From: Halopelagius inordinatus
Lineage (GTDB): Archaea > Halobacteriota > Halobacteria > Halobacteriales > Haloferacaceae
Reading direction: 5' to 3'
Length of the DNA: 64,000 nucleotides
NCBI RefSeq assembly: GCF_900113245.1
Contig: NZ_FOOQ01000002.1
Coordinates: forward strand, 310,001-374,000
Under the pieces are notes generated by a model. It worked only from the letters and a program-made list of their open reading frames with translations, was not told where the DNA came from and did no database searches. Shown one piece after another: positions 54,784 to 64,000 of the stretch. A program made the position numbers and the translations under genes. Within the stretch, counting starts at the first letter, position 1; every line of letters begins with the position of its first letter.

Positions 54784-55397
54784 GATTGGGTTGTCGAGCG
54801 ACACCCCAAGGCGACAGCGGACGGTTCGTGCCTTCCCCCGAGAGTCGACTTCGACTCCCGTCCCACCCCCTGTCGTGGCGTGTCCAATCGGTCTCTCACA
54901 CTACTCCGATATAAAGTTAAAGGAGAAATTAACCAAACCGTGATATAGTTGGTTTGCTATTAATACCACGTTTAAGTACCGTTTAAGAGGGGTACGCCGA
55001 CGCGTATCCGCACTCGACGGTAAAACAGCCGTTCTGTGCGATAACAGACACCACGCACGAACCGATTCGTCGGACGTACTTCGACGCGCGCGCAGTCGTG
55101 CAACACCGCCGGTGTGGAGGGTGCTCCGTCTCTGCACTCGATGCCGCGCGTGCGGTAAGAAGATAGTGATGGAGCTTCGACTTCGCGTTTACCGAGGGCG
55201 CGAAACCACCGTCGAACGTTTCGTGACGGCGCTTCGGACCGTTCGCCTCACCAGCCGTTCTTGCGGACGGTTTATCGGAGATGGCGTCTACACGGGCCAG
55301 ACCCGTCGTTCTCTAATGTCAAATTAGCAAAGACAACACGTTTATCACGGTTCTTATTCAGGACATTTGAATCATCGGGATTATGTTAGTACACAAA
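54784..55397. other. Intergenic region between pilins and S-layer gene
   Basis: About 610 bp without a convincing gene. It holds the pilin promoter region (AT-rich 54900-54990) and ends at the S-layer TATA box. An inverted repeat AACCAA/TTGGTT with a 12-nt loop lies at 54931-54954. A possible 51-codon frame (55170-55327) lacks haloarchaeal codon character. Confidence 0.5.
54969..54987. promoter_or_regulatory. Direct repeat CGTTTAAG x2, one helical turn apart
   Basis: CGTTTAAG occurs at 54969-54976 and 54980-54987, starts 11 bp apart, on the same face of the DNA. It lies some 55-75 bp upstream of the putative pilin TATA, a typical activator position in archaea. The regulator is unknown. Confidence 0.4.
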
Positions 55398-55398
55398 G

Positions 55399-55406
55399 TA
55401 TTTATC
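55399..55406 (+). promoter_or_regulatory. TATA box of S-layer gene 1
   Basis: tatttatc lies about 29 bp before the start of the conserved leader at 55431, as expected for an archaeal TATA element. The initiation site near 55428-55431 is inferred. Confidence 0.55.
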
Positions 55407-55430
55407 GCGCAGACGAGTGCAGTTCTGTTG

Positions 55431-55549
55431 TACCCCTGCCCATGGTGACATCCGCGAGTAACTCCCTCCGAGTCCGATAAGTCGGGCGCCGTGTGGGAAT
55501 CCAGGCTGGACGAAAGCAGGTGTTGCCGACAGAGAAAAACCCCCTAACT
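55431..55549 (+). promoter_or_regulatory. Conserved 5' leader of S-layer gene 1
   Basis: This roughly 119-nt leader is similar to the leader of the second S-layer gene (62276-62387, minus). Shared blocks, in order, are TACCCCT, GGTGACATC, CGAGTA, AGTCCGA, GTCGGGCG, CGAAAG and TGTTGCCGAC, then ATGACAAGCAA at the start codon. The promoters upstream do not align, so the conservation starts at about the transcription start. The leader also holds a 12-codon upstream frame (ATG 55442 to TAA 55480). Confidence 0.62.
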
Positions 55550-58423
55550 ATGACAAGCAAGAAAAAGCAGTTCCGCGCGATATTCCTCGCGGCGCTGATG
55601 GTGCTCTCCGTCTTTGCGGGCACCGTCGCGCTCTCGGGATCCGCAGCGGCTGTTAGTGGTGCTTCCGTCGATACGTTCTCCCCTACGGAGCTCGACGAAG
55701 ATACCACTAACACGCATAACGTGAACGTATCGTTCTCCGACTATAATAACGCCAGTACCGACGACAACATCACCGTCTCGATTCCTGACCTCGAGGGCCT
55801 CTCGCTCAGCGGAGAGAACCTCCGCGTCGAGAACTCCTCTGGCGGTGCCATCACTAACTCCACGACGCTCGTGGACACGAACGACGACGGAGACAACGAC
55901 GCGCTGAACGTCACCGTCTCTCCCACGGGCTCCGAGATGCCCGTCACCGGTGCTGAGACAATCTACCTGAACGGTACCTTCGACGTTGACACGCCGTCGG
56001 TTAACACGAACACCGACGCCACAGTCACGTTCGACATCGAGGACGACAGTGGTACTGGTGACGCAACGGCATCCGCGTCGCAGCCCGTCAGTATCACCAA
56101 CGCGGACGCCAGCGCAACTGGCGCACCGAGCCTCGTGTCGGCAACTCACTACGACACCAACGCTGACAGCGGCGTCCAGAGCACCGTCGTGGAAGTTGCA
56201 TTTAACGAAGAGATGCAGAACGTCGACGACATGTCGCTGTACGTCGACGACGAGGCTGTGGATCTCGGCGCGGGAGCGTTCTCGCAGCCGAGTGACGGCC
56301 GCGTCATCATCGACACCGGGAGCGACCTGAACACGGGCGACGTCACGCTCAACGTTCCCGATTCGGTTACCGATACCGACGATAACAGCGTCCGAAGCAA
56401 CAGTCTCGACGACGACAACAACGTCAGTGTCACCGTCGCGACTGTCTCGATCGACAGCGACACCGGTATGAGTAACCCGGTCAACACCTACCAAGGTGAG
56501 AACGTCGCAGTGCTCGGTTCCGGTCTCGACACGGACGTCGAAGTCGAAGGCGACGACTCGAACTACGCCTTCTCCGGTTCCACTGGCACGAACAGCCAAG
56601 TCTTCGTGTTCAACACGACGAACCGAGAGATCGACCAGTACAACTTCTCGATCGGTCAGGCGAGCCCGAACGCGGCAATCGACGTCCGTGACCTCGGCTT
56701 CAACATGACCATCGACGACCTCAACGTCACCGACGAGGACTCCATCGAGGGTGAGGTTACCGCCAACGCTGGTAACCGACCCATCGAACTGACTCTCGTC
56801 GACGACGACGATGACGACGTCGAGACGATCGGTGCCACCCTGGACGGCCAGGGTGAGTACGACTTCGAGTTCGACCTCGAAGAGCTCGACGTCGACACGG
56901 GCGAATACACGATCGAAGCGCGCGACAACAACTCCGGCGTCACCGACACCTCCTCGACGATCAACGTCGCGGAAGCCGGTGAAGGCACGGCTAACTTCGA
57001 GAGCAGCATCGTCACCGAAGCGCGCGGTGACGTTGTCGAGATGAACATCACGATGGAGAACACCGACACCGCGACGGTGACCATCGGTAGCGACGACGTC
57101 GGCTTCCTCGCCGACGCGACCGTCCAAGACGACGACGACGACGGTGTCGTCACGCTCCAGTTCAACACGTGGGAAGCGCAGGACGGCGCTGACGGCGACG
57201 CCTTCTCCGTCGAGAGCGACGACGACGAGCTCGAAAGCTCCAACATCGAGATCGGCGTCAACTCGCTCCTCGACGCGGGCGACTACGACCTGGAAGTCCG
57301 CTCCGGCACCAACGCCGACGACGACTCCCAGAACGTCGCGACGCTCGTCCTCGAAGAGCGCGAGACGCGCAGCCTCAACACGTGGACTGCCTCGCAGGGT
57401 GCCGACCTCGGCGACAAAGAAGAAGTCTACGAGGCGGCTCAGAACGGGAACCTGACGGTAACTCAGGACATCGCCTTCGGTGACCGCGTCGTTCAGCAGG
57501 TGAACGCATCCGGTCTCGCAGGCCCCCTCGAAGCGCAGGACAACGACGAGGTTGCCAGCCAGCTCTTCGCTGCTGACAACATCAACTACACGGTCGAACA
57601 GACCGAAGCAGGCACGAACCGCGATCCGTTCGCGCTCCGACTGAACGACAGTAACACGGACGTCATCGCAGACGCGGAGAACGACACGTACTTCGTCGTC
57701 TACGAACCGAGCGACGTCCAAGCGTACGTGGACGACAACGAGAACGGCGAGTTCGACGATGGTGAAGACATCGTCACTAACCGTCTCGACGACGAGGAAG
57801 CCCTCACGGGCAACTTCACGGTCCTCGAGGACGACGGTAACCTCGCAGACGAAGACCAGACGGTCGAGTCTGACTACGAGTTCAGCACGGCTGAACACGA
57901 CATGGACGAACCCGTCGAGGTGGCGGCCGCAGAGAACCAGACGATAGAGGGCACGACTACCGTCGCGCCCGGTACGGAACTCCAGATTCGTGTCCGCAGT
58001 GACGATGGCACGAGTCCGAGCTTCCTGAAGACGTCGACCGTCTACGTCACCGAGAACAGAACGTACGACGCGCAGTTCGACTTCAGCGAGCAGAACGTCA
58101 ACGACAGCTTCACGGTCACCGTCTCCGGTGGCCCGTCCGAGGCCGACTCTCTGGAAGCCGACGGTAGCGTCGTCGAAGGCGGCGAGAACCAGACCGAAAC
58201 CGGCACCGCTGGTACGGAGACCGAGACCACGGTGACCGAGACCACCACCGAGGGTGGCGAAACCACGACGGCCGCAACCACCGAGGGTGGCGAAACCACG
58301 ACGGCCGAGGCTGGAACTGACGGCACCGGCGAAGAAACGGGCACCGGTACGCCCGGCTTCGGCGTGGTCGTCGCACTCGTCGCACTCCTCGCTGCGGCAC
58401 TCCTCGCAGTCCGCCGCGACTAA
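55550..58423 (+). CDS. csg: S-layer glycoprotein 1 (PGF-CTERM)
   Basis: This 957-residue acidic protein has a signal MTSKKKQFRAIFLAALMVLS (cleavage near 34), many N-x-S/T sites, an N-terminal domain of about 150 residues that the second copy lacks, Ig-like repeats, a Thr/Glu-rich stalk near 880-932 (O-glycan type), and the PGF-CTERM end TPGFGVVVALVALLAAALLA then RRD, the target of archaeosortase A. It is the main cell-wall building block. The ATG at 55550 gives the signal; an earlier in-frame start at 55493 does not. A terminator follows. Confidence 0.93.
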   Translation: MTSKKKQFRAIFLAALMVLSVFAGTVALSGSAAAVSGASVDTFSPTELDEDTTNTHNVNVSFSDYNNASTDDNITVSIPDLEGLSLSGENLRVENSSGGAITNSTTLVDTNDDGDNDALNVTVSPTGSEMPVTGAETIYLNGTFDVDTPSVNTNTDATVTFDIEDDSGTGDATASASQPVSITNADASATGAPSLVSATHYDTNADSGVQSTVVEVAFNEEMQNVDDMSLYVDDEAVDLGAGAFSQPSDGRVIIDTGSDLNTGDVTLNVPDSVTDTDDNSVRSNSLDDDNNVSVTVATVSIDSDTGMSNPVNTYQGENVAVLGSGLDTDVEVEGDDSNYAFSGSTGTNSQVFVFNTTNREIDQYNFSIGQASPNAAIDVRDLGFNMTIDDLNVTDEDSIEGEVTANAGNRPIELTLVDDDDDDVETIGATLDGQGEYDFEFDLEELDVDTGEYTIEARDNNSGVTDTSSTINVAEAGEGTANFESSIVTEARGDVVEMNITMENTDTATVTIGSDDVGFLADATVQDDDDDGVVTLQFNTWEAQDGADGDAFSVESDDDELESSNIEIGVNSLLDAGDYDLEVRSGTNADDDSQNVATLVLEERETRSLNTWTASQGADLGDKEEVYEAAQNGNLTVTQDIAFGDRVVQQVNASGLAGPLEAQDNDEVASQLFAADNINYTVEQTEAGTNRDPFALRLNDSNTDVIADAENDTYFVVYEPSDVQAYVDDNENGEFDDGEDIVTNRLDDEEALTGNFTVLEDDGNLADEDQTVESDYEFSTAEHDMDEPVEVAAAENQTIEGTTTVAPGTELQIRVRSDDGTSPSFLKTSTVYVTENRTYDAQFDFSEQNVNDSFTVTVSGGPSEADSLEADGSVVEGGENQTETGTAGTETETTVTETTTEGGETTTAATTEGGETTTAEAGTDGTGEETGTGTPGFGVVVALVALLAAALLAVRRD
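57311..57361 (+). repeat. 51-bp block identical with S-layer gene 2
   Basis: These 51 bases are identical to the reverse complement of 60902-60952. The block encodes NADDDSQNVATLVLEER. Exact identity at synonymous sites over this length points to recent gene conversion or duplication. Confidence 0.75.
58016..58058 (+). repeat. 43-bp block identical with S-layer gene 2
   Basis: These 43 bases are identical to the reverse complement of 60256-60298. The block encodes PSFLKTSTVYVTEN in both proteins. Confidence 0.75.
58244..58309 (+). repeat. 33-bp tandem repeat in the S-layer stalk
   Basis: Two 33-bp units start at 58244 and 58277, with the first 30 positions identical. They encode the TTEGGETTTAA-type repeat in the Thr-rich stalk. 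Slippage could lengthen or shorten the stalk. Confidence 0.75.
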
Positions 58424-58436
58424 CGACAGCTAACCA

Positions 58437-58473
58437 CCGGAGTTCGCTCCGGCCCTTCGAATTTCTTTCTTTC
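58437..58473 (+). terminator. Hairpin plus T-rich tract after S-layer gene 1
   Basis: CCGGAG-TTCG-CTCCGG is a 6-bp stem with a stable TTCG loop at 58437-58452, followed by a T-rich tract (tttctttcttt, 58462-58472). It lies 14 bp after the stop and is a convincing terminator for a highly expressed gene. Confidence 0.7.
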
Positions 58474-59112
58474 GGCACTCGACCCGGTAGTGACGGCGGT
58501 TCTCTCTGAGTGGAGGACGGACACTCTCACACCGAACGCCGAATCGGCGACTCACCCGCGTCACCGGAGGGACCCGCCTGCGTCGCAGCGAACGCGTTGT
58601 AGACACTCGACGGAGGTACAGCGGAGAGAGACGACGCGCGACTCGGAACTCACGTCGTCGAAAGTTGACTCTCCGAACGAGGGAACGACGCTGTCCGTCG
58701 GCCCGCCCTCGGAGACGGCCGGTGTCGGTACCTCAGTGAAGCGGGTCACAGAGGTGGTGCTGACGACGCAGCCGGTATCCCGCGTCGTCCACCCGAGAGG
58801 CACTCAAAGAGAGAGTGTGCTCTGAGGAGAGTGTGGCCGACATCCACCTCGGGCGAGGATTCCGTGAGGAATAGTGGGGCTACGCGTTTCCTCTGACCCA
58901 TACGAAGTATCTGAAGCCACTGATGCTCCCTAGGTGACCGAAGACGGTGCTTTCCAGCGCGTACAGCCCTTCCAACGGCACGTCCTCGGATATACACCGG
59001 AACATCGACCCGTCTCTGGTGCGAACGAGACACGGATCATCTCGCCGACGTCATCGGACGTCCCTAAACGGGATTCGAGAACTCACGCACCTGCATCGGG
59101 GGCGTCCGACCC
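58474..59112. other. Region between S-layer gene 1 and the unknown gene
   Basis: No firm gene is seen. The minus-strand frame 58561-58803 (80 codons from GTG, ...SVVPSFGESTFDDVSSES...) has GC-rich third positions and Cys residues near its end, so it could be a small gene or a gene remnant. The rest shows no coherent frame. Confidence 0.4.
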
Positions 59113-59796
59113 TCAGGGGCTTCCGACGTCGTTTTGGCCCGAGGAGCGGGCACCACCACGATAGGCGATGTCGCTCTCTTTCCTGAGAGCGATAGAACGA
59201 TTCGTCGGCGTCACTCCGCACGCGAAACCGGGTGATTCGTCGAAGTACGCGAATATCCACTTGACGTCCCCCGCCGCCTCCTCGGGTAAGTCCGCCAACG
59301 TGCACATCGCAGGCAGACTCTCGTAGAGCTGTTCCGGTGAGATGCCCGTCAGTTTCGAGCTTCCCGACCCGCCGACGGAGTAGCGTCTGCTCGGGGCGTT
59401 CTCGTACTTCCCTTTGGCTAGTATCCAGCAGACGTTCTCCTGCGGGCGGTCTTCTCGGACGGTGTAGACGCCAGGTTCGATCCTCCGGCGGCCGAACGCG
59501 TGGAGAATCCAATCGTATATCGCTCGCGGTACGCTCTGTCGAACGCTGTTCGTCTTCGAGAAATCGATCTGCTCGAGCAGTGTTCGGTTCTTCTCTACGA
59601 AGAGCGTCGCGGCCGCCCTCTCGTCGCCCGCCAGATACGAGACGGAGACGAACCGTCCCCCCGAGTTCGAGCGCGTCGTATTCCCCGAACCGGTCACCGT
59701 GATACGCCGAATATCTCGTCGCTCTTCGAGCGAAAGGTCCGCCTTGTGAATCCCGGTTTCGGGGCCTCGCTTCAGCAGTTCGTACGATTCTGTCAT
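59113..59796 (-). CDS. Unknown protein between the two S-layer genes
   Basis: This 227-residue soluble protein starts MTESYELLKRGPETGIHKAD and has LSLEERRDIRRITVTGSGNT, VSYLAGDERAAATLFVEKNR, LLEQIDFSKTNSVRQSVPRA and three Cys in its C-terminal part. There is no signal peptide or membrane span. I do not recognise a family. It sits alone between converging S-layer genes, read on the same strand as copy 2. The codon pattern is normal for the window, so it is probably real. Confidence 0.7.
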   Translation of the reverse strand: MTESYELLKRGPETGIHKADLSLEERRDIRRITVTGSGNTTRSNSGGRFVSVSYLAGDERAAATLFVEKNRTLLEQIDFSKTNSVRQSVPRAIYDWILHAFGRRRIEPGVYTVREDRPQENVCWILAKGKYENAPSRRYSVGGSGSSKLTGISPEQLYESLPAMCTLADLPEEAAGDVKWIFAYFDESPGFACGVTPTNRSIALRKESDIAYRGGARSSGQNDVGSP

Positions 59797-59878
59797 GGGC
59801 GTCTGGTAACCGTCGTGTGGTACGATCGAAACACGGCTGCGTGATCGAGTACGGAAATAGGGGAACCGAAAGGCCGAG

Positions 59879-59895
59879 CGGAGGGAGACCCTCCG
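59879..59895 (-). terminator. Hairpin after S-layer gene 2
   Basis: CGGAGGG-AGA-CCCTCCG is a 7-bp stem with a 3-nt loop, 13 bp past the stop of copy 2 on the minus strand. Only short T-runs follow, so the terminator role is likely but less clear than for copy 1. Confidence 0.5.
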
Positions 59896-59908
59896 AAATC
59901 TCGGGTAG

Positions 59909-62275
59909 TTAGTCGCGGCGGACAGCGAGGAGCGCCGCGGCGAGAAGTGCCGTCAGAGCGACGACCACGCCGAATCCGGGCGTGCTCGTCTCAGTCGGCT
60001 CTTCGGTCGCGGGCTCTTCGGTGGCCGGGGCTTCGGTCGTTTCCGGAGCCTCGGTCGTGTCCGGCGCGTCCGTCGTGACGGGCTCGTCGGTGACCGTCGC
60101 CGTGCCGTCGTCGGTCACGGTTTCGGTCGTGCTGGAGCCTTCGGCGACGGTGCCGTCGACTTCCTCACGGGGTGCTGCACTGCTGCCCGTGACGCGGATG
60201 TTGTACTCGTCACCGGGGTTCTGCTCGCTGAAGTCGAACTCAGCGGAGAACGTGTTGTTCTCGGTGACGTAGACGGTCGACGTCTTCAGGAAGCTCGGGC
60301 TGGTGCCGTCGGCGCTGCGGACGCGGATCTGCAGTTCCGTACCCGGAGCGACGTTGGAGTCACCTTCGACGATCTGACCCGCAGCGTTCGAGACGTTGTA
60401 CGGGTCGTCGAGGCTGTGTTCGCCCTCGATGAGGTCGAAGTCGGTCGTCGTGCTCTCTTCGCTGTCAGAGAGGTTGCCGTCCGCCTCTTCGACGGTGAAG
60501 TTGGCCGTGATGCCGTCGTCAGCACCGAAGTCGACCGAGTTGCCACCGCGGAGTGCGGCGAGGTCGCTGTCGTCGGAGTCGAACACGATGAAGTACGTGT
60601 CGTTCTCAGAGTCGCCGACAACTGCCGCGTTGTCGCTCACGTTGAGCGAGTACGCTTCGCGGTTCGCCGGTGCGGTGGTCTGGTTGAACGTGAGGTTGAA
60701 CTCTTCGTTACCGAAGAACTGTTCGCGGGACTCGTAGATACCGCCGAGACCCGAGGCGGTGACCTGCGTGATGACGTAGTCACCGTGCGCGATGTCGCTG
60801 TCCTGCGTGAGGTTACCGCTCTCGAGCGCCTCGTTCACTTCGTCGAGGTCGCTGAGGTCGGTGTCGTCGGACGCGGTCCACATCTGGACCGACTCCGTGT
60901 TGCGCTCTTCGAGGACGAGCGTCGCGACGTTCTGGGAGTCGTCGTCGGCGTTCTGCGTGGCGCGGACTTCCAGGTCGTAGTCGCCCGCGTCGAGGAGCGT
61001 CGAGACCTGGTTGTTCGCGTCGATGTCGGACTTGACGATCGAGTCGTCGCTGTCGTCGACATCGAAGACGTCGGCCGTAGCGGACGTTCCGCCGGCGACG
61101 TTGATCGCTTCCCACGTGTTGAAGAGAATGACGACTTCGCCGTCGTCGTTCTCGTCTTCGACGGTCACGTTAGCGAGGAAGCCGACGTCCTCGCTGCCGA
61201 TGTTGACCGTCGCGTAGTCGCTGTTCGAGACGGTGACCGGAATCTCGACGACGTCACCGCGCGCTTCGGTGATGACGGAGCTTCCGAAGTTCGCATCCCC
61301 GTCCTGAGCGTCGTCGACGTTGACCGTCGACGATTCGACGCTCACACCGGAGTCGAGGTCGGTCACCTTGACCGTGTACTCGCCGGTGTCGTCGGAGGAG
61401 AACTCCGAGCTGTCGAACGTGAAGTCGTACTCACCCTGGCCGTCGAGGCTGGGGTTGGAGATGTTGACGAACTCGTCTTCGTCGCTGTCGAGGAGCTGGA
61501 TCGAGAGATCACGGTTGCCCGCGTTGGCGGACGCCGTGCCCTCGAGGGCGTCGTCGGTCGTGATGTTCTGGTCGTCGAGTTCGACGTTCAGACCCAGGTC
61601 GCGAACGGTGAGCGTCGCGTTCTGGCTCTGGTTGTTGTCGAAGACGAACTCGTAGTCTCCGAGGTCGCGGTTCTCCGTGTTGAACACGAACACCGTACTG
61701 TTGGTGCCGGTGGAACCACTGAAGGAGTACGTCGCGTCGTCGTCGGTGGCTTCGACGTCTATCGATTCGCTGAGGTTGTTAGCCTCGACGGCGACGTACG
61801 AGCCCTTGTAGGCGTTCTTCGTGTCGCCCTGGCCGAGCGTGACGGACGCGAAGACGACGCTCTTGTCGCCCGCGTTCGCGAGCGTGGCACCGTTTTCGGC
61901 GTCCTGAATGTTGCCGGAGAGATCGATTTCGATGTCCTCGGACTTGATCGCGGACGAAGTCTCGATGACGACGCGGCCGTCATCATCTTGGGAAATACCA
62001 TTCCAGACGTCAGCCGTGACGTTGTCACCATCGTCGAGGATGGTGAAGTTCGCCTGCGTCAGGCTGGAGGAGTTGATCTGTTCGTCGAACGGTACTTCGA
62101 TGACGGTGTCACCATTACTATCTTCGTAGTGAACCGCACCGCCCGCGTAGTTGGGGGCGGTTCCGTCGGGTGCAGCTGCGGACGCTCCCGTGAACGCGAC
62201 GGTGCCTGCAAAGACGGACAGGACCATCAGCGCCGCGAGGGCGACTGCGCGGATCTGCTTTTGTTTGCTTGTCAT
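59909..62275 (-). CDS. S-layer glycoprotein 2 (PGF-CTERM), inverted paralogue
   Basis: This 788-residue paralogue of the 55550-58423 gene has a nearly identical signal (MTSKQKQIRAVALAALMVLS), the same domain order from SATHY/GAVHYED on, shared GSTGTNS.VFVFNT, NAGNR, LDGQGEYDF, ITEARGDVVE, DVGFLA, LLDAGDYDLEVR and SFLKTSTVYVTEN, an Asp/Glu/Thr-Pro stalk and PGF-CTERM end TPGFGVVVALTALLAAALLA. It lacks the first extra domain of copy 1. Exact DNA blocks are shared with copy 1. The ATG at 62275 is fixed by the leader conservation. Confidence 0.92.
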   Translation of the reverse strand: MTSKQKQIRAVALAALMVLSVFAGTVAFTGASAAAPDGTAPNYAGGAVHYEDSNGDTVIEVPFDEQINSSSLTQANFTILDDGDNVTADVWNGISQDDDGRVVIETSSAIKSEDIEIDLSGNIQDAENGATLANAGDKSVVFASVTLGQGDTKNAYKGSYVAVEANNLSESIDVEATDDDATYSFSGSTGTNSTVFVFNTENRDLGDYEFVFDNNQSQNATLTVRDLGLNVELDDQNITTDDALEGTASANAGNRDLSIQLLDSDEDEFVNISNPSLDGQGEYDFTFDSSEFSSDDTGEYTVKVTDLDSGVSVESSTVNVDDAQDGDANFGSSVITEARGDVVEIPVTVSNSDYATVNIGSEDVGFLANVTVEDENDDGEVVILFNTWEAINVAGGTSATADVFDVDDSDDSIVKSDIDANNQVSTLLDAGDYDLEVRATQNADDDSQNVATLVLEERNTESVQMWTASDDTDLSDLDEVNEALESGNLTQDSDIAHGDYVITQVTASGLGGIYESREQFFGNEEFNLTFNQTTAPANREAYSLNVSDNAAVVGDSENDTYFIVFDSDDSDLAALRGGNSVDFGADDGITANFTVEEADGNLSDSEESTTTDFDLIEGEHSLDDPYNVSNAAGQIVEGDSNVAPGTELQIRVRSADGTSPSFLKTSTVYVTENNTFSAEFDFSEQNPGDEYNIRVTGSSAAPREEVDGTVAEGSSTTETVTDDGTATVTDEPVTTDAPDTTEAPETTEAPATEEPATEEPTETSTPGFGVVVALTALLAAALLAVRRD
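60256..60298 (-). repeat. 43-bp block identical with S-layer gene 1
   Basis: The inverted partner of 58016-58058. Together with the block at 60902 it defines inverted homology around the central segment. Confidence 0.75.
60902..60952 (-). repeat. 51-bp block identical with S-layer gene 1
   Basis: The inverted partner of 57311-57361, identical over 51 bases. Confidence 0.75.
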
Positions 62276-62387
62276 GTTGGGTAGGTCGCAAGTCGGCAAC
62301 AGCATCTTTCGGTCGCCCTAGGGTCTGAACGCCCGACGTTCGGACTTGGACGACGGTACTCGGTGATGTCACCTTTGGGTAGGGGTA
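62276..62387 (-). promoter_or_regulatory. Conserved 5' leader of S-layer gene 2
   Basis: This roughly 112-nt minus-strand leader matches the leader of copy 1 in ordered blocks (TACCCCT, GGTGACATC, CGAGTA, AGTCCGA, GTCGGGCG, CGAAAG, TGTTGCCGAC). A TATA-like catttaatg on the minus strand, around plus 62408-62416, lies about 25 bp upstream of its start. The upstream short frame seen in copy 1 has no stop here. Confidence 0.6.
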
Positions 62388-62502
62388 GCCGAACAGCGGC
62401 GACGGTACATTAAATGTTTTGTGTATCTCTGCCCAAATTGACAGTGAAAAGTAATGATGGGGTGAGCTCCTCTTATCGCCCCGATCCGCTGAGTTGAGAA
62501 GC

Positions 62503-62570
62503 TCTCGGGCCACTTCCGAGTGTGCGAGGCAGCACGAGGCGGGAAAACGCCTCGTAACAGCGGGGTGCCA
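62503..62570. ncRNA. Hairpin-rich stretch, possible structured RNA
   Basis: Consecutive stems are CTCGG/CCGAG with a 7-nt loop near 62504-62520, and the perfect 8-bp ACGAGGCG/CGCCTCGT with a 6-nt loop (62534-62555), then a weak GC stem. No terminator-like T-run follows. It lies in an otherwise AT-rich gap between divergent genes. No known RNA family is recognised; it may also be a DNA site. Confidence 0.25.
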
Positions 62571-62698
62571 TTCTAAACATTAGATTAGTCGCGTGCGGGC
62601 GTCTATCTATCCGGTCCTATCACCGGGACCAGTAATATTACGAATAAGTATAATAGGGCCGAAAAATTGTTCAATCAATTTACCATCCACTTAGAACA

Positions 62699-62708
62699 AG
62701 ATATATGC
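62699..62708 (+). promoter_or_regulatory. TATA box of the amidase gene
   Basis: gatatatgca is centred about 30 bp before the ATG at 62735, fitting a leaderless or near-leaderless haloarchaeal transcript. Confidence 0.5.
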
Positions 62709-62734
62709 ACGATTTGGCATCTATTTAGTCTCAA

Positions 62735-64000
62735 ATGTCAGATAGATGTAGAACGAGCGAGAGGAGTTCACAGTCGGGGTCTCTTCCGATCGACCGCCGG
62801 TCTCTGTTGAAAGGAATCGGTGCCGCGGGGCTGATTGGAGCGGGGACGGCGACCGCCAGCGCGGGCGATTCCGGAACCTCCGGGTCCGACGGCGGATTCA
62901 CCGCGGTCGAGGCGACCGCTTCGGACGTCCTCGACGCGATCGAGAGCGGGGAGGCGACGGCCGAATCGATCGTCGAGCAGTACCTAGAGCGGATCGAGGT
63001 CTACGACGAGGCGCTCGACGCGATTATCACCGTGAATCCCGACGCGGTCGAACGCGCCGAAGAGCTCGATGCGAAATACGAGGATTCGGGGGCCGTCGGT
63101 CCGCTACACGGCGTCCCGGTCGTCCTGAAGGACAACTACGATACCGGTGACATGCCGACGACCAACGGCTCGCTCTCGATGAAGGAGTCTCAGCCGCCGG
63201 ACGACGGGTTCCTCGTCCAACAGCTCCGTGAAGCGGGCGGCGTCGTCGTCGCCAAAGCCAACCTCGACGAGTTCGCCCGCGGGATAGAGGGCAGTAGCTC
63301 GTACGGGGGCCAGACGCGCAACGCCTACGCGCTCGGTCGCAATCCGAGCGGTTCCAGCGCCGGGACCGGAGCCTCGATCGCGGCGAGTCTCGGGGTGATC
63401 GGTACCGGCTCGGACACCTGCGGATCGATTCGCAACCCGTCGGCGTTCGGAAGCCTGGTCGGCATCCGACCGACGCTCGGGCTACTGAGCCGCGATGGTA
63501 TCGTCCCGTTGAACTTAGAGCGAGACACGGGTGGTCCGATGTGCCGGACGGTTCACGATGCGGCGCTCGCGTTGGACGTGATGGCTGGGTACGATCCGAA
63601 CGACCCGATCACGGCCCGCGGAGCGGACGAAATCCCGGCCGAAGACGACCAGACGCCCGAAGACAGCTACACCGAGTACCTCGACGAGGACGGACCCGAC
63701 GGGGTACGAGTCGGCGTTCTCCGCGATTTCTTCGGGCCCGAAGAGGAGATTCTCGAAGGAGACGAAGGAGACGAAGAAGACGAGTACGACCTGACCGTAG
63801 CGGAAGCCAAAGCGGAGGCGGTGCAGGTGACCGCCGTCATCGAGACCGCGCTCCACGATATGAGCTCCGAGGGAGCGGAGATCGTCGAGTTAGACACCGT
63901 TCCGAACCTCGACGAACTCCTCGAAGAGGCCGACTCGCCCGATCCGTTCAAACAGGATCTCAACGCCTACCTCGAAGACGTCGACAACGAGTACGACACG
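62735..64000 (+). CDS. Secreted amidase (amidase-signature family), 3' end beyond window
   Basis: ATG at 62735 is open to the last base (422 codons). A Tat signal (IDRRSLLKGIGAAGLIGAGT) is followed by a Gly/Ser linker. The amidase-signature triad is in view: Lys in PVVLKDNYD, cis-Ser in GRNPSGSSAGTGAS and the nucleophile Ser in SDTCGSIRNPSAF. These Ser-Ser-Lys hydrolases cleave amide bonds; the substrate is unknown. A Glu/Asp-rich insert (EGDEGDEEDEYD) follows the core. Codons such as GAT and CTA and GATC-rich stretches set it apart from the core genes. Confidence 0.9.
   Translation, partial: MSDRCRTSERSSQSGSLPIDRRSLLKGIGAAGLIGAGTATASAGDSGTSGSDGGFTAVEATASDVLDAIESGEATAESIVEQYLERIEVYDEALDAIITVNPDAVERAEELDAKYEDSGAVGPLHGVPVVLKDNYDTGDMPTTNGSLSMKESQPPDDGFLVQQLREAGGVVVAKANLDEFARGIEGSSSYGGQTRNAYALGRNPSGSSAGTGASIAASLGVIGTGSDTCGSIRNPSAFGSLVGIRPTLGLLSRDGIVPLNLERDTGGPMCRTVHDAALALDVMAGYDPNDPITARGADEIPAEDDQTPEDSYTEYLDEDGPDGVRVGVLRDFFGPEEEILEGDEGDEEDEYDLTVAEAKAEAVQVTAVIETALHDMSSEGAEIVELDTVPNLDELLEEADSPDPFKQDLNAYLEDVDNEYDT

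Follow-up and report, generated by a model that had tools for sequence, protein, structure and literature searches.

The messages of two S-layer glycoprotein genes of Halopelagius inordinatus begin with an untranslated leader that is predicted to fold into a conserved RNA shape and that has an invariant first dozen letters. The leader is found ahead of S-layer genes across the order Halobacteriales, and it matches no family in Rfam. A search of positions 54800-64000 of the window (the whole 64,000-nucleotide stretch analysed, from contig NZ_FOOQ01000002.1) against 4227 Rfam covariance models, at E up to 1, gave 0 matches. The structure of this RNA element, which is well supported by comparison, consists of an unpaired 5' end (GUACCCCUACCCAU) at the inferred transcription start, a stem P1 of about 12 bp, a GAGUA/GAAA internal loop resembling a bulged-G motif, a stem P2-P3 that is variable, and an A/C-rich spacer without Shine-Dalgarno. 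Its function is inferred. The features in the window are as follows.

55391..55405 (+): BRE/TATA region of S-layer gene A (ACACAAAGTATTTAT)
55430..55552 (+): leader RNA A with start codon, whole match to covariance model R2 (96.5 bits, E 1.6e-21)
55430..55443 (+): unpaired 5' tail GUACCCCUGCCCAU, of which the first base is the transcription start as inferred from TATA spacing, not measured
55444..55455 (+): P1 5' strand
55456..55460 (+): GAGUA half of the internal loop (bulged-G-like)
55463..55469 (+): P2 5' strand, with mismatches in this copy
55472..55487 (+): P3 hairpin GUCCGA-loop-UCGGGC
55512..55515 (+): GAAA half of the internal loop
55516..55527 (+): P1 3' strand
55528..55549 (+): unstructured spacer to AUG, no Shine-Dalgarno
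55550..58423 (+): S-layer glycoprotein gene A (957 aa; TIGR04207 signal peptide, PGF-CTERM)
62411..62421 (-): BRE/TATA region of S-layer gene B (CAAAACATTTA)
62273..62388 (-): leader RNA B with start codon, whole match to model R2 (83.9 bits, E 1.8e-18)
62374..62388 (-): unpaired 5' tail CUACCCCUACCCAAA
62362..62373 (-): P1 5' strand
62357..62361 (-): GAGUA half of the internal loop
62307..62310 (-): GAAA half of the internal loop
62295..62306 (-): P1 3' strand
62276..62294 (-): spacer to AUG
59909..62275 (-): S-layer glycoprotein gene B (788 aa; TIGR04207 signal peptide, PGF-CTERM)

The initial annotation had reported that the leaders 55431-55549 (+) and 62387-62276 (-) align over their whole length in seven ordered blocks, while the DNA before the TATA elements does not, and this observation is confirmed. 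The coordinates are right: the ATGs are located at 55550 (+) and 62275 (-), and the leaders are 119 and 112 nt long. Global alignment of the two leaders gave 83 identical of 110 aligned positions, with a score of 42 against 6.8 +/- 2.4 for 500 shuffles, none of which scored as high. The DNA upstream of the TATA region had a score of 8 against 4.8 +/- 2.2, with 47 of 500 shuffles as high, and is not significantly similar. The description as seven blocks is a fair one, but the blocks are really the conserved pieces of one folded RNA. What had been omitted is that the first 120 nt of the two coding regions, which encode the signal peptide, are even more alike (92 of 108, score 65.5). The conserved unit is thus the leader plus the signal-peptide region, after which similarity falls (score 17).

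The leader is not restricted to this gene pair. The same genome has two more copies, and a covariance model finds the leader in 166 of 293 Halobacteriales genomes, representing 45 of 87 genera. In a set of 38 genomes, all 28 model matches lie just upstream of TIGR04207 genes, on the coding strand. We also searched all genome contigs with the promoter plus the 5' tail alone, which gave 74 stretches, every one haloarchaeal. Of 75 testable downstream proteins, 74 carry the S-layer signal peptide TIGR04207; one of the 76 pattern sites was left out of this protein scan because its locus had too few codons. The BRE/TATA element precedes the leader in the 76 sites by construction of the search, with a spacing of mostly 25 nt to TACCCC (25 nt after ATTTA in 59 of 76). 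However, many TIGR04207 genes lack a match (39 of 93 sites at E <= 0.01 with model R1), and 127 of the 293 genomes of the order had none under strict filters, so the leader is not essential for every S-layer-like gene. Of 98 TIGR04207 places, 93 were examined, while 5 weak or truncated ones were not; counts of leaders by TIGR04207 score were tallied by hand. Outside the order, one weak match (E 0.0068) was found among 246 genomes of the phylum, which is at the chance level for about 200 genomes. The leader was found in no phage record, and in plasmids it gave 3 records, with matches mostly in the signal-peptide region. Two further hits on viral contigs are not S-layer genes and were rejected, although one of them (L237) scores 22.5 bits.

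The conservation of the stems was examined by several comparisons. Swapping P1 arms between leaders weakens pairing: the cognate arms have -15.2 kcal/mol against -13.0 kcal/mol in 56 leaders, and -15.2 against -12.6 in the 76 named leaders, with 0 of 20000 permutations in each case. RNAalifold on sequence-only alignments finds P1 in one set and P1, P2 and P3 in another. Compensatory changes were seen at 6 of 8 P1 pairs in 38 leaders and at 11 of 21 pairs in 18 leaders, with shuffle controls at 0-2 of 500. These leaders come from the 56 that had the tail by pattern among the 93 sites plus two non-S-layer loci; the 38 and the 18 were chosen by eye as the most alike, which favours good alignment. 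In 78 leaders aligned to the model, 25 of 25 pairs change on both sides in at least one leader, and the sequence-only alignments and the swap test agree with these fitted alignments. In contrast, an all-pairs covariation scan of a sequence-only alignment of the 76 named leaders ranked two P1 pairs sixth and seventh, behind pairs outside P1, in our reading because clades such as Haloarcula dominate that set; we therefore rely on the swap test and on the earlier, more even sets. The single-sequence folds of the two window leaders are no more stable than shuffles (z +1.25 and -0.63), so the structure rests on comparison. The consensus of the bulged-G (loop E/sarcin-ricin) module is AGUA opposite GAA, flanked by base pairs. 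AGUA plus GAA is found in register in 63 of 78 and in 39 of 50 leaders, with covarying pairs next to the loop on both sides, although the pair on the P2 side (41-228) fails in 34 of 68; the non-canonical 3D geometry was not probed. The start region is more open than in shuffles, with a mean unpaired fraction of 0.70 against 0.46. There is no SD-like motif in the last 20 nt of 76 of 76 leaders, and the last 15 nt are 82% A+C.

The interpretation offered in the initial annotation, that a fast-diverging gene pair keeping its 5' UTR implies a function such as mRNA stability, translation control or a small-RNA binding site, is partly supported. A function at the RNA level is strongly supported, since the leader is conserved across the order, starts abruptly where transcription should start, and has stems kept by compensatory changes. 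Two outcomes had been named in advance as fatal to the idea, and neither was seen as far as they could be examined: the blocks are present in the S-layer genes of other species, and TATA geometry places the start at the first base of the first block rather than inside or downstream of the blocks. The TATA spacing and the abrupt onset of conservation fit transcription of the leader as part of the mRNA, but in the absence of transcript data they do not settle it. A literature search for a mapped csg start found no passage giving one, and the main text of the Haloferax dRNA-seq paper does not mention S-layer or csg. Which of the three proposed functions applies is not decided by these data, and small-RNA binding has no positive support.

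Our preferred explanation, held with moderate confidence, is that the leader is a cis-acting structured RNA, a new RNA family of haloarchaeal S-layer mRNAs, that most likely acts on stability or translation. Comparison itself demonstrates the invariant tail of 12-14 nt, the P1 stem kept by compensatory changes, the internal loop flanked by covarying pairs, the P2-P3 stem of variable size, the A/C-rich spacer without Shine-Dalgarno and the strict association with TIGR04207 S-layer genes, whereas the start of transcription at the first base of the tail, the bulged-G nature of the loop and the mechanism are inferences. In this view, the element would fold as a closed domain that leaves the start codon open, and would present the tail and the internal loop to a trans-acting partner, which is unknown and could be an RNA-binding protein or the small ribosomal subunit. 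This would keep the mRNA stable and efficiently initiated, supporting the very high S-layer output. A role in openness alone would not need an invariant tail and loop. No reporter, binding or half-life data were available to us, but the S-layer gene is the most expressed non-clustered protein gene of Haloquadratum (PMC5496347), and in Methanococcus and Sulfolobus, S-layer 5' UTRs raise protein yield (PMC11627041). Most haloarchaeal mRNAs are leaderless, 72% in Haloferax volcanii (PMC11627041), and a folded, gene-specific leader kept across the order in front of the dominant wall protein is therefore an exception with a purpose. If confirmed, it would give archaea a widespread cis-regulatory RNA outside the known families, a handle on how S-layer output is set, and a rational explanation of, and improvement to, csg-based expression vectors. 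The genetically tractable hosts Haloferax and Haloarcula carry it, so that it is directly testable.

Other explanations were considered. It is possible, though unlikely, that the leader is a feedback or signal-responsive switch, in which a protein (S-layer precursor, ribosomal or other RNA-binding protein) or a small ligand binds the internal loop and represses translation or adjusts it to envelope demand. A conserved internal loop inside a covarying stem is typical of recognition sites, a single dedicated target gene fits autoregulation, and the bacterial SLH motif upstream of S-layer-homology genes was proposed as a riboswitch candidate (PMC6429828). However, an expression platform of the terminator or SD-masking type is lacking: neither leader contains a terminator-like site, and there is no Shine-Dalgarno to mask (0 of 76). 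Moreover, no alternative conserved pairing was seen, and the apical part varies widely in length (leaders of 78-154 nt); ligand binding was not assayed. Less likely still is a function at the DNA level, with the tail acting as an initiator or initially transcribed element of a very strong promoter and the rest of the leader as a secondary feature. The tail does begin exactly at the expected start, at a fixed distance from a strongly conserved BRE/TATA, and it never varies enough to test pairing. But this reading cannot explain the compensatory changes in P1-P3, the combination of promoter and tail was found in the whole genome collection only at S-layer genes and not at other strong promoters, and the 5 exact copies of the tail elsewhere in the own genome are not placed behind a TATA box.

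Base-pairing of the tail in trans, with a small RNA or with rRNA, is doubtful. CCCCUAC is complementary to GUAGGGG in 16S helix 45, the own genome's 16S carries GUAGGGG near its 3' end, and the commonest tail variants (CCCCUGC, CCCCUAU) would keep G-U pairing. Nevertheless, a random 7-mer occurs in a 1.5-kb rRNA about 9% of the time, and helix 45 is itself paired. No complementary small-RNA candidate was found in the own genome: matches to the tail within one mismatch are fewer than for the control pattern (22/16 against 28/26), and 20 of those loci hold no Rfam RNA other than tRNAs. The tail was also compared with the 3' ends of both genes, giving -10.9 and -11.3 kcal/mol; these values were not compared with shuffles and the idea was dropped. 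Sharing by recent paralogue gene conversion, or retention only as a recombination cassette for swapping S-layer genes, is very unlikely. The leader and the signal-peptide region are conserved together, S-layer genes occur in tandem or as several copies, and in Haloquadratum they sit in exchanged islands (PMC3119063). However, leader A is 90% identical to one leader of a congener and leader B 88% to the other, while A and B are only 68% identical, so the copies diverged before the genus split and were not homogenised; compensatory changes are not expected under this reading. Attenuation by a leader peptide was rejected because no upstream reading frame is conserved: 28 of 76 leaders lack the AUG, and in the other 48 the frame varies from 21 to 54 codons (17 share 30 codons). 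A more speculative possibility, which we consider tentative, is that the leader is the dock for a dedicated haloarchaeal RNA-binding factor that couples S-layer synthesis to the envelope. Such a factor would read the invariant 5' end plus the bulged-G-like loop, and would either adjust S-layer translation to wall demand or carry the mRNA, paired with its unusually conserved signal peptide, to the site of S-layer insertion. This would be a gene-specific post-transcriptional control system of the archaeal cell wall, kept across an entire order.

Related leaders have been described. The Methanosarcina slmA1 S-layer mRNA (2012, PMC3361143) has a long (154-159 nt, mapped) and conserved 5' UTR with predicted secondary structure and a role stated as unknown; it was reported for three Methanosarcina species, with >91% identity between two, and we found no covariation described there. 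The named Methanosarcina leaders were not aligned to our model, and whether the 246 phylum genomes searched with model R2 include Methanosarcina is not shown. The SLH motif (2019, PMC6429828) is likewise a structured RNA upstream of S-layer-related genes found by comparative genomics. It is bacterial (Synergistaceae, Clostridia, Negativicutes), a different taxonomic range, and lies upstream of SLH-domain proteins; its sequences and consensus were not compared with the leader. Ribosomal-protein leaders of bacteria and archaea (PMC7247131) are structured cis-regulatory leaders, including one with a bulged-G module and some in Halobacteria. They precede ribosomal protein genes and some imitate rRNA, while the leader described here precedes S-layer genes only, and this identity was rejected. 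The csg promoter of Haloarcula japonica is used in expression vectors (PMC11614938), where promoter use is described without mention of a leader structure; H. japonica carries this promoter and leader.

The two leaders lie where the initial annotation placed them, and each ends at the ATG of an S-layer glycoprotein gene.

55431-55549, + strand, leader A
62387-62276, - strand, leader B

The two proteins, of 957 and 788 amino acids, match the haloarchaeal surface-glycoprotein signal peptide TIGR04207, PGF-CTERM, and the S-layer family NF041335. The scores for NF041335, 646 and 632 bits, are below its cut-off of 1100, and the proteins are thus S-layer-type paralogues rather than certified orthologues. 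The leaders agree at 83 of 110 aligned positions, with 0 of 500 shuffles as good, while the DNA before the TATA regions is not significantly alike, with 47 of 500 shuffles as good. The first 120 nt of the coding regions are even more alike (92 of 108), after which similarity drops. The observation of the initial annotation, a conserved untranslated leader shared by both genes with no such similarity before the TATA elements, therefore holds, and the leader is much more widespread than could be seen from the two genes alone.

The genome holds four TIGR04207 genes that score over the family cut-off, and all four have the leader. These are the two genes in the window, one on contig C1 at 808039 and one on contig C10 at 17419. 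Leader A is 90% identical to one leader of a congener and leader B is 88% identical to the other, while A and B share 68%. The copies are thus older than the genus split and have not been homogenised by gene conversion.

Absence of the leader from the S-layer genes of other species had been named in advance as a result that would count against it, and the leader was found there. TIGR04207 occurs in 54 of 60 relatives. We examined 93 such sites, of which 54 match the first covariance model, R1, at E <= 0.01. The presence of the leader tracks the quality of the signal peptide, with 47 of 60 sites that have TIGR04207 at E <= 1e-10 against 7 of 33 weaker ones (counted by hand; Fisher p 1.5e-7). 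The broader model, R2, matches 166 of 293 genomes of the order, in 45 of 87 genera, under strict filters. In 246 genomes sampled from the phylum, 32 match, of which 31 are in the order and one, outside it, has E 0.0068, which is about the chance expectation. In 38 relatives searched with laxer filters, all 28 matches lie directly upstream of TIGR04207 genes. A search independent of structure and protein, which used the promoter element plus TACCCCTACCC in all 84,980 species, gave 74 stretches, all haloarchaeal, from 25 named genera plus unnamed MAGs, including Haloferax and Haloarcula. The downstream proteins carry TIGR04207 in 74 of 75. R2 matches 73 of those 76 sites and adds five leaders of neighbouring S-layer genes, while the three sites missed are in Natronomonas (two) and Halolamina (one). 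The two Natronomonas leaders, at loci L184 and L193, are about 170-180 nt long and nearly identical to each other, with the tail but no R2 match, and have a third, longer body. A divergent group, at loci L038, L056, L063, L064 and L070, keeps the promoter and tail but has a different body, often with (G)GACUGUC or CUGUCAC near the 3' end and with weak or no model match, and is perhaps a second leader architecture. In several genomes, S-layer genes with the leader stand in tandem pairs or triples, each copy with its own leader (loci L135, L151, L155, L156, L157, L160 and L183, and contig C1 of genome G279 at 343336-350273). Moreover, a 40.5-kb contig filed as viral (IMGVR_UViG_3300026962_000013, locus L232, 2262-4732) carries an S-layer-type gene with this leader (33.7 bits), in which P1, the stem described below, is intact and the internal loop motif is missing. 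The gene lies beside an integrase, an HNH-repeat protein and a TFB gene, and the contig is apparently a mobile element that carries a host-type S-layer gene.

Sequence-only alignment of 38 leaders already yields a stem, P1, between nucleotides ~15-23 and the segment just before the AUG spacer. In that alignment 92.4% of cells pair, compared with 83.0% in shuffles, 6 of 8 pairs show changes on both sides, and sliding the partner by 1-3 columns lowers both pairing and covariation. In a more uniform set of 18 leaders, stems P1, P2 and P3 appear together, with 21 pairs, 11 of which have changes on both sides. An alignment-free test agrees: on average, each 5' arm pairs better with its own 3' arm than with those of other leaders (0 of 20000 permutations in each of two sets). 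In model-fitted alignments of 50 and 78 leaders, 20 of 21 and 21 of 21 pairs, respectively, show double changes, although these alignments lean towards the model by construction. Single leaders do not fold better than shuffles, so the evidence is comparative. P1 extends to about 12 pairs, up to an internal loop GAGUA/GAAA, with AGUA and GAA in register in 63 of 78 and 39 of 50 leaders. The pairs that flank the loop covary, with C-G, U-A and U-G on the P1 side, where 69 of 78 are paired, and C-G and U-A on the P2 side, where, however, 34 of 68 are unpaired. This loop matches the bulged-G (loop E, sarcin-ricin) consensus. The 5' tail GUACCCCUACCCA is nearly invariant in the TIGR04207-anchored leaders that have it, and the G before the searched TACCCC is 92% conserved in the named set although it was not part of the pattern.

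The initial annotation had also made its reading depend on where transcription starts. The distance from ATTTA to TACCCC is 25 nt in 59 of 76 sites and 23-28 nt in all. Conservation is low between TATA and the tail and jumps at the G of GUACCCC. No mapped start was found in the papers searched. Archaeal transcription starts about 25 nt downstream of TATA, and the G of GUACCCC is where it should start.

The spacer before the AUG is A/C-rich, with 82% A+C over the last 15 nt, and has no SD-like motif in 76 of 76. It is predicted to be more open than in shuffled leaders (0.70 against 0.46 unpaired), although whole-sequence shuffles also spread the local composition. The RNA can thus be described as a closed domain with a free 5' end and a free initiation region. 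There is no expression platform of the known riboswitch types. The invariant parts, the tail and GAGUA/GAAA, ask for a partner. We therefore favour, with moderate confidence, a stability/translation element that acts through a bound factor, and feedback control is the next possibility. A DNA-level role for the tail cannot be excluded because the tail does not vary. Pairing of CCCCUAC with GUAGGGG of helix 45 of the 16S rRNA is possible but of the order of chance. The interpretation in the initial annotation, that the kept 5' UTR implies a function such as mRNA stability, translation control or a binding site for a small RNA, is partly supported. The comparisons show an RNA rather than merely a shared sequence, whereas the transcription start and the way in which the element works are inferred, and the mechanism is open.

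A search of Rfam returned no match, and the leader is a new RNA family among the structured mRNA leaders, a kind of element that is already known. Methanosarcina slmA1 has a long conserved leader of unknown role (PMC3361143), which is a parallel rather than a shown homologue. The bacterial SLH motif is a structured RNA that precedes S-layer-homology genes (PMC6429828). A literature search, which covered open-licence papers only, listed none that we could recognise as describing this haloarchaeal leader, and a start site or a remark on the leader may already be in print in the classic csg papers (Lechner and Sumper 1987; Sumper et al. 1990; Wakai et al. 1997). Further features were seen at the 3' ends of the two convergent S-layer genes of the window and between them.

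58424-58470, + strand, and 59860-59908, - strand, segments that follow the stop codons of the two S-layer genes
59113-59796, - strand, a 227-amino-acid reading frame between the two genes

Both S-layer genes end in GACTAAC, and a G+C-rich inverted repeat, of the GGAG..CTCC type, follows the stop codon within about 40 nt. These repeats are possible shared 3' UTR hairpins. The 227-amino-acid reading frame has no Pfam or NCBIfam match.
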